Assembly: GCA_030538605.1 (NCBI GenBank) | Contig: JAUNTQ010000030.1 | Span: forward strand, 1-34,206 | Source: Pseudomonadota bacterium | GTDB lineage: Bacteria > Pseudomonadota > Gammaproteobacteria > Burkholderiales > Burkholderiaceae_C | Direction: 5' to 3' | Length of the DNA: 34,206 nucleotides | In this document: positions 1-33,826 of the stretch, piece by piece | Position numbering within the stretch: the stretch's first letter is position 1 | How the letters are laid out: every line of letters starts with the position of its first letter | Notes under the pieces: generated by a model | Databases searched by the model: none | Seen by the model: only the letters and a program-made list of their open reading frames with translations | Told to the model about the DNA's origin: nothing | Program-made: the position numbers and the translations under genes

Positions 1-489
1 GACCCCGCCGTGGTGCTGCTGTGGCTGGGCTGCGCGCTGGCGGTGGTGGCGCTGGGCTGGCAGCTGTGGGCACCGCTTGACCGCACGGTGCAGCTGCTGG
101 CCGACGCGGCATCGCCCGTGGCGCTGTTCACCATTGGCGCGGTGCTGGCGCGTTCGCAATTGCAGGCGCGCGTGAGTGAAAGCCAGGCCAGGGCGGCGCG
201 GGCGGGCGACGCGGCGGACGTGGGGCTGGTCACCGCCGCCAAGCTGCTGCTGCACCCGGCGCTGGTGTGGGGCGCGGGCACCGTGGCGGTGTGGGCCGGT
301 GTGCTGACACCAGCGGCGCTGGCCGCGCTGGTGCTGGTGGCGGCGCTGCCGTCGGCCAGCAATGTGTCGCTGCTGGCCGAGCGCTTTGGCGCCGACAACG
401 GGCGCGTGGCGCGCATCATCCTGTGGACCACGGCGCTGGCTTTCTTCAGCTTTGCGGGGGTGGCAACCTGGATGAAGACCATGTATTGA
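1..489 (+). CDS. AEC family transporter (auxin efflux carrier type), 3' part only
   Basis: The reading frame is open from the first base, so the gene begins outside the window and only about 162 C-terminal residues are visible. They are very hydrophobic, with about four membrane segments. The segment AALPSASNVSLLAERFG matches the conserved C-terminal half of the AEC (auxin efflux carrier/malonate transporter) family, a set of inner-membrane secondary carriers for small organic acids or amino acids. The substrate cannot be told from this part. The stop codon lies one base before a long intergenic hairpin shared with the convergent alr gene. The family call is good; the substrate is unknown. 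Confidence 0.82.
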   Translation, partial: DPAVVLLWLGCALAVVALGWQLWAPLDRTVQLLADAASPVALFTIGAVLARSQLQARVSESQARAARAGDAADVGLVTAAKLLLHPALVWGAGTVAVWAGVLTPAALAALVLVAALPSASNVSLLAERFGADNGRVARIILWTTALAFFSFAGVATWMKTMY

Positions 490-490
490 T

Positions 491-566
491 AGCTGCTTGC
501 GTATGTTTTAAAATGAATTCAGATACAAACCTATCTGAATTTCAATTAAAACGTACGCAAGCAGCT
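491..566. repeat. Intergenic hairpin, AGCTGCTTGCG family, copy 1
   Basis: Arms at 491-525 and 532-566 are 35 bases each, with a few mismatches and a 6-base loop. The outer ends read AGCTGCTTGCGTA and TACGCAAGCAGCT. It lies between the stop of the transporter (489) and the stop of alr (616), which converge on it. A T-rich stretch follows the right arm. It could act as a two-way transcription terminator. Related copies are at 4435-4516, 16415-16500, 26559-26637 and 27600-27680. Confidence 0.85.
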
Positions 567-615
567 CCTTTTTTATTTCTTCACGAACCGGTTAACCCCC
601 TTGCCGCGCCTGCTT

Positions 616-4434: not shown

Positions 4435-4516
4435 GATAGCTTCTTGCGTACGGTTTAAAGCATTTTCAGATACATTAATGCCTGAAAATGCTTTAAACCG
4501 TACGCAAGAAGCTATT
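4435..4516. repeat. Intergenic hairpin, AGCTGCTTGCG family, copy 2 (likely bidirectional terminator)
   Basis: Arms at 4436-4469 and 4482-4515 are perfect 34-base reverse complements with a 12-base loop. The right arm runs into seven T residues, so on the plus strand it has the form of an intrinsic terminator for the EamA gene ending at 4432. The minus strand has AAAA before the left arm, giving a T-run for the convergent gene that stops at 4556. The ends read GATAGCTTCTTGCGTACG, a one-base variant of the family. Confidence 0.88.
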
Positions 4517-16414: not shown

Positions 16415-16500
16415 ATGATAGCTGCTTGCGCACGTTTTAAAACATTTTAATATATAAACGTATCTGAAAATTTTTAAATACGTACGCAAGCAGCTATCAT
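16415..16500. repeat. Intergenic hairpin, AGCTGCTTGCG family, copy 3
   Basis: The ends ATGATAGCTGCTTGCG (16415-16430) and CGCAAGCAGCTATCAT (16485-16500) are perfect reverse complements. The inner part is AT-rich and pairs imperfectly. It lies 10 bases after the ybeD stop and 39 bases before the stop of the convergent lipoprotein gene. Confidence 0.85.
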
Positions 16501-21041: not shown

Positions 21042-21806
21042 ATGCCCACCTTGCCCTTCAAGCCCTGCCAGCCAGCCGCCTCAGGCACTCTCGTGCAGCC
21101 TGGCATGAGCCTGGACGCGCGTTTTCTCGGCCGCGTCGATTACGCGCCCACCTTCCAGGCCATGAAAGACTTCACGCAGTCTGCCTTGGTGGACATGCGC
21201 GATGAGCTATGGATTTGCGAGCATCCACCCGTCTTCACCCTCGGCCTGGCGGGCAAGCCGGAGCATGTGCTGCTGCCGGGCGACATCGCGGTGGTGCCCA
21301 CCGACCGGGGCGGGCAAGTGACTTATCACGGGTCGGGGCAGGTGGTGGCGTATCCGCTGATCGACCTCAAAAGGCGCGGCATCTTCGTCAAGGAATACGT
21401 CTACCGGCTGGAAGAAGCGGTGATCCGCACGCTGGCGCACTTTGGCGTGACGGGGCACCGCGTGGGCGGCGCGCCGGGCATTTACGTGCGGCTGAATGAC
21501 CCGTTCAGCCACGCCGCGCTGGCGCAAAAGCCGCAGCGGCGCGTGCCCGGCTCGCCCGCGCCGCAGCCGGATTTCACCGGGCTGGGCAAGATCGCCGCTT
21601 TGGGCATCAAGGTGAGCCAGCACCGCGCCTACCACGGCCTGGCGCTGAACGTGGCGATGGATCTATCGCCCTATCAGCGCATCAACCCTTGCGGCTATGC
21701 GCAGCTGGCGACGGTTGACCTTTCTACAATCGGCGTTTCGGCCTCGTGGGACGAGGCGGCGCACCAGCTGGCAGCACAGTTGCAGCGGCTTTTGGCCCTT
21801 TCTTGA
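21042..21806 (+). CDS. lipB: Octanoyl-[acyl carrier protein]:protein N-octanoyltransferase
   Basis: LipB moves the octanoyl group from acyl carrier protein to the lipoyl domains of dehydrogenase complexes in the cytoplasm. The protein has 254 residues. The substrate-pocket motif [12 protein letters not shown], the catalytic lysine K183 in [11 protein letters not shown] and the catalytic cysteine C217 in RINPCGY are present. A proline-rich insert of about 25 residues precedes the lysine motif, longer than in E. coli. It follows the AlbA_2 ATPase by 12 bases instead of following ybeD, so its transcription may now depend on that unit. The TGA stop is part of the inverted repeat at 21804-21903. 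Confidence 0.95.
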
Positions 21807-21903
21807 ACGCAAAGGGCGCAAAGGCTTCGCCAAAATCGCAAAAAAGAAATGCAAGGTTTTCTTTTTTGCGTTTCTTGCGTGACCTCTGCGCCCTTTGCGT
21901 TCA
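21804..21903. repeat. CGCAAAGG-type inverted repeat between lipB and lipA
   Basis: Outer arms 21804-21820 and 21887-21903 (TGAACGCAAAGGGCGCA and its complement) and inner arms 21837-21849 and 21858-21870 are perfect. The element begins at the lipB stop codon and ends 18 bases before the lipA start. A related element is at 27859-27943. Confidence 0.85.
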
Positions 21904-26462: not shown

Positions 26463-26482
26463 CGCCAGCCCAGGCAACACGC

Positions 26483-26551
26483 AGGGTGGGTGCTTGCACC
26501 CACGCGGTTGAGGTGCCCCGCAGCGTTCACGTGGGTGCAAGCACCCACCCT
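26483..26551. repeat. 22-bp inverted repeat, TAGGGTGGGTGC type
   Basis: Arms 26483-26504 (AGGGTGGGTGCTTGCACCCA, plus CG) and 26530-26551 are perfect reverse complements with a 25-base spacer. Each arm is itself nearly palindromic around TGCTTGCA. A decayed half copy (AGGGCGGGTGCTTGC) lies at about 32344-32360. Confidence 0.8.
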
Positions 26552-26558
26552 ACAAAAC

Positions 26559-26637
26559 GATAGCTTCTTGCGCAACCAATACGTTATTTCAAATGCTTTT
26601 TATTTGAATTTGATGTATTACGTACGCAAGCAGCTAT
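26559..26637. repeat. Intergenic hairpin, AGCTGCTTGCG family, copy 4 (decayed)
   Basis: GATAGCTTCTTGCG on the left and CGCAAGCAGCTATA on the right pair with mismatches; the inner AT-rich region pairs only in part (ATACGT/ACGTAT-like). It is the only copy between genes pointing the same way, and it lies upstream of an EamA gene rather than directly after a stop codon. Confidence 0.75.
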
Positions 26638-26702
26638 ATTTTTATTGATATCACGCACAAGCAGCCGTGGTGACCACGTGGTCGCCGATACCATCGCGGG
26701 CC

Positions 26703-27593
26703 ATGACACCCAAGCCCCACCACGCCAACCCCAGCGCCGCCGCCAACCTGCTGGCGCTTGCCACCATCGCCCTGTGGGCCAGCCTGGCCGCGCTGGGTGC
26801 GGCGCTTTCGCACGTGCCGCCGTTTCTGCTCACGGGCCTGGGGCTGCTGGCGGGCAGCCTGATCGCGCTGCCCATGGTGCGCTTTGACCTGCGGCGGCTG
26901 GCCGTGCCGTGGCCGACGCTGGCGGTGGGGGTGTACGGGCTGTTCGGCTACCACTTTCTGCTGTTCACCGCGCTGCAGCTGGCGCCGCCGGTGGAGGCCA
27001 ACCTGGTCAACTACCTGTGGCCGCTGGGCATCGTGTTCCTCGCGCCGCTGCTGCTGCCGGGCGTGCGGCTGACGGGGCTGCACATGCTGGCGGCGTTGAT
27101 GGGTTTTGCGGGCGCGGCCATCGCCATCCTGGGCCGCGGCAGCGCGGGTGCAGCGGCTGGGCCGCACGCGGCGTGGGGCTATGCGGCGGCGCTGGGCGCG
27201 GCCTTCATCTGGGCCACGTATTCGCTCTTGACCAAGCGGCTGACCATGACCGGGCGCGGCTTTCCCACGGCGGCGATTGGCACGTTTGGCGTCGTGTCGG
27301 GCGTGCTGGCGCTCATCTGCCACGCGCTGCTGGAGCCAGCCGTGGCCTTGAGCGCGCGCGACGTGCTGCTGATCGCCGCGCTGGCGCTGGGGCCGCTGGG
27401 CGGCGCGTTCTTTTTGTGGGACGCCGCCCTCAAACGCGGCGACGCGCGGCAGATCGGCGTGCTGGCGTATCTGACGCCCCTGCTCTCGACCCTGGTGCTG
27501 CTGCTCACCACGCGCCAGCCCCTCACGCTGAACGTGGCACTGGCCACCGGGCTGATTCTGGCGGCGGCGGTGTTGGGCACACGGGCGAGATGA
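26703..27593 (+). CDS. EamA/DMT family transporter
   Basis: A 296-residue inner-membrane protein with ten hydrophobic segments in two halves. The segments LFTALQLAPPVEANLVNYLWP and ALGAAFIWATYSLLTKR are typical of the EamA family, and the first is reminiscent of aromatic amino acid exporters such as YddG, although that assignment is weak. ATG 26703 is preferred over an in-frame GTG further upstream because the upstream bases are AT-rich and belong to a repeat. The stop codon lies directly before a long hairpin. Confidence 0.83.
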   Translation: MTPKPHHANPSAAANLLALATIALWASLAALGAALSHVPPFLLTGLGLLAGSLIALPMVRFDLRRLAVPWPTLAVGVYGLFGYHFLLFTALQLAPPVEANLVNYLWPLGIVFLAPLLLPGVRLTGLHMLAALMGFAGAAIAILGRGSAGAAAGPHAAWGYAAALGAAFIWATYSLLTKRLTMTGRGFPTAAIGTFGVVSGVLALICHALLEPAVALSARDVLLIAALALGPLGGAFFLWDAALKRGDARQIGVLAYLTPLLSTLVLLLTTRQPLTLNVALATGLILAAAVLGTRAR

Positions 27594-27599
27594 AAAATC

Positions 27600-27680
27600 G
27601 AAGCTGCTTGCGTACGTTAAAAGCCAGTTTCAATATCAAAATATATTGAAACTGGCTTTTAACGTACGCAAGCAGCTATC
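27600..27680. repeat. Intergenic hairpin, AGCTGCTTGCG family, copy 5, with flanking direct repeat
   Basis: Arms 27602-27636 and 27643-27677 are perfect 35-base reverse complements with a 6-base loop. The element GAAGCTGC...GCAGCTATC is bounded exactly by AAAAATC at 27593-27599 and again at 27681-27687, as a target duplication would be. It lies just after the EamA stop and may also terminate transcription. Confidence 0.88.
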
Positions 27681-33642: not shown

Positions 33643-33704
33643 GATGGCCCGTTAATTGGGGTCAGATCACTATTGATTCAGGTCTTGGCTGGGCCGCTGG
33701 CGTT

Positions 33705-33733: not shown

Positions 33734-33826
33734 AGCTTGCAAATCAAATCGCCCATTAGCGCTTTATTCACAGGCGCGGATAGCTATTAAATATAAAGCG
33801 TGCTCACGCACGTCCAGCCGCCCAAC

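Follow-up and report, generated by a model that had tools for sequence, protein, structure and literature searches.

A dispersed family of 76-bp palindromes at gene ends in an Ottowia genome as candidate bidirectional terminators

The window analyzed here is a stretch of 34,206 nucleotides on contig C150, part of the 3.77-Mb draft genome of an Ottowia. It has a G+C content of 68% and carries five palindromes with A/T-rich inner arms and fold loops of 5-12 nt. When we searched the window for the 18-base end sequence with up to 3 mismatches, we obtained ten matches that form five inverted pairs, against a shuffle mean of 0.06. All five elements listed in a first-pass annotation are present, and it is the whole palindrome of 74-76 bp, counted from AGCT to AGCT, that makes the family, beyond the ends alone. 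The ends, described there as shared, agree within 0-3 mismatches each and are not exact. In the list below, an outward T run is TTTT within 12 nt of the core, z is the RNA fold score, and gene orientation comes, as throughout, from a home-made gene caller and not from annotation.

488..569 (core 491-566), no strand assigned: 76-bp palindromic element in the convergent gap 489/616; outward T run on the right only; z -12.4
4435..4516 (core 4438-4513), no strand assigned: 76-bp palindromic element in the convergent gap 4432/4556; outward T runs on both sides; z -17.0
16415..16500 (core 16420-16495), no strand assigned: 76-bp palindromic element in the convergent gap 16404/16540; outward T run on the left only; z -9.9
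26559..26638 (core 26562-26635), no strand assigned: 74-bp palindromic element in a tandem gap; outward T runs on both sides; z -5.6
27599..27680 (core 27602-27677), no strand assigned: 76-bp palindromic element in the convergent gap 27593/27977; outward T run on the left only; z -17.1
33751..33788, no strand assigned: weak short hairpin, found by eye, resembling the short form S defined below, in the window's fifth convergent gap; fold -8.8 kcal/mol; contains GATAGCTAT

The gene calls bear out the earlier placement of four of the five elements between convergent genes, with the fifth (26559) in a tandem gap. Seen from the gaps, four of the five convergent gaps in the window contain an element of the family, and the remaining one holds the weak S-like hairpin together with a minus-strand terminator-like hairpin. 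Starts 0-11 bases after a stop codon had been reported; this holds for three of the convergent-gap elements (2, 10 and 6 bases), and the element at 488 begins inside the stop codon, its GATAG end overlapping the TGA of the left gene. The element at 26559 lies 96 bases past a stop and adjoins a GC-rich palindrome of a different family. T runs on both sides, said to occur in several elements, are found at two of the five (4435 and 26559); the other three are one-sided only. The fold scores range from z -5.6 to -17.1, and none of 200 shuffles folded as well for any element, which counts in favor of a terminator. On the other side, a consensus terminator scanner, which seeks short GC-rich stems, called none of the five. 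An Rfam scan of the window gave no match at the gathering score. Sigma-70-like promoter matches at 486-514 and 16449-16500 fall inside or across the A/T-rich palindromes and probably reflect their composition.

The family extends throughout the genome. A paired pattern with exact ends (74-77 bp allowed) occurs at 205 places, and the half-site, which includes the form AGCTGCTTGCG, has 311 matches when up to 2 mismatches are allowed, compared to 0 for the same pattern read backwards. We then defined copies in a sample of 1,162,254 bases from 17 contigs or contig parts, window included, by at most 3 mismatches per end, at most 5 in total and 60% Watson-Crick pairing. This gave 127 copies, with 109 at 76 bp, 15 at 75 and 3 at 74 although 70-82 bp were allowed. 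A covariance model built on 38 copies, which does not demand exact ends, yielded 258 strand matches, the weakest at 33-50 bits. If both strands match, these are 129 places, compared to 127 by the end rule, so few decayed copies lie within reach of the model. The whole-genome covariance search scored 150 of 1,761 candidates and so provides no copy count. Pairwise identity among the 109 copies of 76 bp averages 0.73 and the best pair reaches 0.91, which indicates that the sample holds no recent duplicates.

The mean G+C content of the 38 copies is 34%. Among the 109 copies, AGCT, TTGCG, A13, G15, T19, T28, T29 and A31 are 93-100% conserved, the share of the end bases being inflated because the search needed them, and arm positions 12, 14, 16, 18 and 20 reach 58-69%. 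Positions 12-21 alternate, such that 13, 15, 17, 19 and 21 are conserved and 12, 14, 16, 18 and 20 are variable. Near-invariant bases such as AGCT are not required by a simple terminator, and this is a point against the terminator reading. The exact half-site AGCTKCTTGCG occurs 215 times in the sample; 190 of these are inside counted elements, and 2 of the remaining 25 are parts of a single element with poor pairing.

Standard pairs make up 84.6% of stem cells in the 38 aligned copies. In this alignment, 22 of 35 pairs changed on both sides and 91 cells covaried compared to 49.5 after shuffling, with none of 500 shuffles as high; we count this for a terminator. The strongest well-populated excess of complementarity, taken over 109 copies, falls on cross-arm partners (26-51, z 5.5; 18-59, z 4.6). 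A cloverleaf fold within each arm, considered on account of CTTG-N5-CAAG in relatives, was rejected, since the best intra-arm pair (18-21) reached only z 1.9 compared to 5.5 for the cross-arm pair 26-51. Stem pairing is higher in convergent copies than in tandem copies (0.817 vs 0.770, p 0.017), again in favor of termination. Two strand-specific comparisons count against it: G-U and A-C mismatches on the transcribed strand numbered 126 and 102 (p 0.13), and fold energy did not differ by strand (p 0.23).

The first-pass annotation had proposed that the genome be searched and the orientation of flanking genes tabulated, and in the 1.16-Mb sample the convergent bias is indeed present. The 127 copies lie in 67 tandem, 43 convergent and 12 divergent gaps, at 4 contig edges and, once, within a called gene. 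Counted by gap, 43 of the 141 convergent ones contain an element, as do 66 of the 747 tandem and 11 of the 138 divergent ones; the gap rule left out one tandem copy and one divergent copy. The convergent share clearly exceeds that of the other gaps (43/141 vs 77/885, p 3e-11), which favors a terminator, and the bias holds against the intergenic bases remaining after element removal (p 2.5e-4). No gap in the sample contains two elements. The nearest stop is within 30 nt for 62 of 111 copies, and nine sit at -2 to +1, with their end abutting the stop codon or overlapping it. Elements of 42 convergent gaps are closer to a stop than under uniform placement, with 0.4% of 500 simulations as close, and of 65 copies in tandem gaps, 49 occupy the stop-proximal half. 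With the elements masked, other terminator-like hairpins show only a weak depletion in gaps that have an element (14/86 vs 44/166 ends, p 0.08), a result counted against termination.

Outward T runs are a regular part of the element. Among the 127 copies, TTTT lies within 12 nt outward on at least one side in 97% and on both sides in 59%, compared to 4.3% in control intergenic DNA, and T makes up 80-86% at positions +5 to +8 past AGCT; the excess over control DNA counts for a terminator. A census made without regard to sequence, and with wider flanks, found T runs on both sides in 55 of 108 family members and on either side in 102 of 108. The same census gave 0/56 and 11/56 for five other named palindrome families and 3/25 and 7/25 for miscellaneous palindromes. 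The T runs of the 67 tandem copies are symmetric: a run lies where the upstream gene would need it in 56 and on the opposite side in 54, and the one-sided copies divide 12 vs 10, a point against a terminator.

Other palindromes of the same genome share part of this placement. The CTGGGTAGAGC palindromes, with 21 copies in convergent, 13 in tandem and 2 in divergent gaps, are even more convergent than the 76-bp family, and convergence alone therefore proves nothing. The median distance to a stop is 21 nt for the 76-bp family, compared to 94-102 nt for three other palindrome families; as near or nearly so are CACCGCAGAG (19 nt), CCCCCGCTGGGG (36 nt) and the miscellaneous group (13 nt). Three palindromic families other than the 76-bp one, with additional copies in the genome sample, are present in the window, namely GTAGGCTGGGTAGAGCGAAGCG (~1999-2094), AACGCAAAGGGCGCAAAG (~21806-21901) and GGGTGGGTGCTTGCACCCAC (~26470-26564), and motif counts are mostly convergent for GTAGGCTGGGTAGAGCGAAGCG (21/36) and GGGTGGGTGCTTGCACCCAC (7/10). 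A further repeat, GGGGTCAGATC, occurs once near window position 33655, in the last convergent gap. It lies beside Y1 (RAYT-like) transposase genes in 4 of 10 loci (L058:1019-2028 of the same genome, L055, L059 and L060) and flanks them on both sides in 2, so that the Y1 transposase and GGGGTCAGATC are candidates for a REP-like pair.

The strict paired pattern, applied to 60 genomes, was found only in the genome that holds the window. A looser pattern (62-86 bp) matched 4 of 12 other members of the genus, in each case at 74-76 bp, with 26 matches in the congener Ottowia beijingensis GCS-AN-3 (G060), 2 in G015 and 1 each in G077 and G078. In a family-level search restricted to 74-77 bp, matches occurred in 9 of 200 genomes and 7 of 141 genera, own genome and genus counted. 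Outside the genus 18 places were listed, and in 13 of them one or both arms have TTTCA at their centre. A genome-collection scan whose pattern needed a perfect centre returned O. beijingensis as the sole match, in a collection from which the records of the present genome may be absent. Spread by plasmids was set aside after one 95-nt query gave no match. Among 200 genomes, 21 carry the short form S, ATAGCTGCTNGCGCNTG-loop-CANGCGC, and these represent 15 of 141 genera. S motifs also occur in called coding genes (L084:6316, L084:7619, L073:9117 and L074:13023); four of six coding motifs examined translate in a single frame to PA(Q/S)Q(A/T)Q(E/A)A linkers, resembling protein-inserted palindromic elements.

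Next, we compared gene ends with O. beijingensis. The set of 25 copies from this species, which omits L167 (it fails the pairing rule) and a copy at 3634500, comprises 16 tandem, 9 convergent and 0 divergent placements, with gap types of 109/23/22 in a 160-kb run. Sixteen of the 25 are within 30 nt of a stop and several end in CAATA...TATTG. Their tails are weaker, with TTTT on either side in 15/25 and on both in 3/25, which counts against a terminator. Among 42 orthologous gene ends, 10 have an element in the present genome; O. beijingensis also carries an element at four of these and a half or short form at three, and the other three are empty. Of the 32 ends without one, two have an element in O. 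beijingensis, one has a short form there and 29 are empty. Sharing is thus 7/10 vs 3/32 (p 4e-4), in stretches of O. beijingensis that were partly picked around its elements and with one element possibly counted for two genes; we count this in favor of termination. After the gene that stops at 27593, nine relatives could be aligned near the end. The corresponding site carries a short hairpin or a remnant of the motif in 7 of them, clearly in G015, G060, G063 and G064 and partially in G061, G077 and G084; G073 has nothing and G065 is interrupted by N. After gene B of contig C153, TAGCT follows immediately at the stop in 5 of 9 relatives.

Over the inner 54 bases, identity is 0.64 among copies of the present genome, 0.61 among those of O. 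beijingensis and 0.55 between the two. Since copies are more alike within than between species, each of the two species has its own dialect. Inner identity for three comparable orthologous pairs is 0.48, 0.52 and 0.69, a fourth pair differing in length, and on this small number of pairs orthologous copies are not closer than random ones. In another Ottowia, G061 (loci L176-L205), there are 43 exact AGCTGCTTGCGCAGG sites, and 9 of the 10 read continue as GTGGTTGTAGGGC variants. These represent a species-specific short form with yet another interior.

Several known systems resemble the family in part. DNA uptake sequences have species dialects, and the short motif is common outside hairpins too. 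In Neisseria and Pasteurellaceae, paired uptake sequences of ~9-11 nt are reported to act as terminators and to be enriched in tail-to-tail gaps (PMC1852404). The present elements are likewise dispersed inverted motif pairs that make hairpins, and their middle sequences parallel the dialects; unlike uptake sequences, they repeat as whole palindromes of 74-76 bp, and only 25 of 215 exact half-sites are outside counted elements. We rejected an uptake signal because half-sites are seldom alone in the 1.16 Mb (190/215 within counted elements). REP and REPIN sequences are extragenic palindromes, many per genome and species-specific in sequence, whose RAYT gene is flanked by the repeat. The many extragenic palindromes seen here are similar, but the family motif (up to 2 mismatches) lies within 500 bases of a Y1 match in only 2 of 10 loci (L058 of the same genome and L057 of G061), each time on a single side. 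Of 29 genus genomes, 21 have Y1-transposase matches; G065, G071 and G075 have none despite many motif matches, which together with the one-sided motifs makes a RAYT/REP link unlikely for the 76-bp family.

Single bidirectional intrinsic terminators are palindromes preceded by an A run and followed by a T run, and are normally unrelated in sequence from site to site. The present elements differ in being one repeated family with conserved length and motifs. The beta-proteobacterial repeat element BRE is 75-91 bp at full length, mostly intergenic and reported from Comamonadaceae among other hosts, has a mean G+C content of 69% and can occur in tandem (PMC3110155). Compared by these features, the present family is similar in length and intergenic location and differs in its low G+C content and in placing no two copies in one gap of the sample. 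No description of such a repeat appeared among the papers listed by searches of the open PMC literature, outside of which most subscription journals lie.

On DNA evidence, dispersed bidirectional intrinsic (Rho-independent) terminators are the best explanation for these elements, which are probably, as candidates, of this kind. Transcription of either flanking gene would form a ~35-bp stem in the RNA, and the far-side T run would become the U tail of the transcript. With a stem and a far-side T run for either direction, one palindrome could end transcripts from both sides. We infer that RNA polymerase stops at the elements and that selection for termination keeps the copies. This reading is preferred because it best unites the hairpin, the T runs, the proximity to stops and the retention of sites. 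The two-way terminator suggested at the outset is upheld in part: hairpin, T runs, stop proximity and convergent bias fit, but tandem copies (67) outnumber convergent ones (43), unrelated palindromes are also biased to convergent gaps, and signs of directional termination were not found.

The symmetric T runs of tandem copies (56 vs 54 of 67) and the convergent preference shared by unrelated GC-rich palindromes leave room for a tolerated repeat, that is, a selfish or neutral MITE-like palindrome that lands anywhere, persists where no promoter or gene is harmed and has the T runs as part of its unit. Amplification in one species, combined with rarity or absence in most relatives searched, also fits such a repeat; the patterns used had no match in 8 of the 12 genus members and in 191 of the 200 family genomes. 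We nevertheless consider it unlikely, given that there is no direct-repeat excess at the element ends of the kind that MITE target-site duplications would give (offsets 3-15, threshold more than 8 matches above shuffled pairing), that recent duplicates are absent from the sample and decayed copies few within reach of the covariance model, that elements are close to stops even within convergent gaps, and that gene-end occupancy is common to O. beijingensis. Survival only at such sites, the other suggestion made at the outset, may contribute to the placement. A long double-stranded stem shortly after stops, on both strands, would suit a REP-like stabilizer of mRNA 3' ends or an RNase III processing site instead of a terminator; neither needs outward T runs, which nearly all copies have on one side or both, and we regard this option as improbable. 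Least probable, and by our estimate very much so, is a DNA-binding site for a nucleoid, uptake or mobilizing protein, for which the bases are read and not the hairpin. At least 95% conservation of AGCT, TTGCG, A13, T28, T29 and A31 next to paired positions that vary and are partly compensated is in its favor, with the end share inflated by the search, and the rarity of lone half-sites speaks against it.

It is conceivable, though we hold it only tentatively and incline to doubt, that the terminator family evolves in concert, such that hundreds of gene ends share a species-specific middle sequence while the same places in a relative have S or an element whose middle is that relative's own. If true, a process such as conversion, trans-mobilization into old terminators or template switching would rewrite terminators genome-wide. 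The dialects prompt one to ask how scattered palindromes stay uniform inside a species, yet differ from those of another, when no recent duplication is apparent. In conclusion, the genome offers several hundred candidate two-way terminators, nearly equivalent and alike in design, as natural replicates on which to study termination, how convergent genes are insulated and how regulatory repeats spread.
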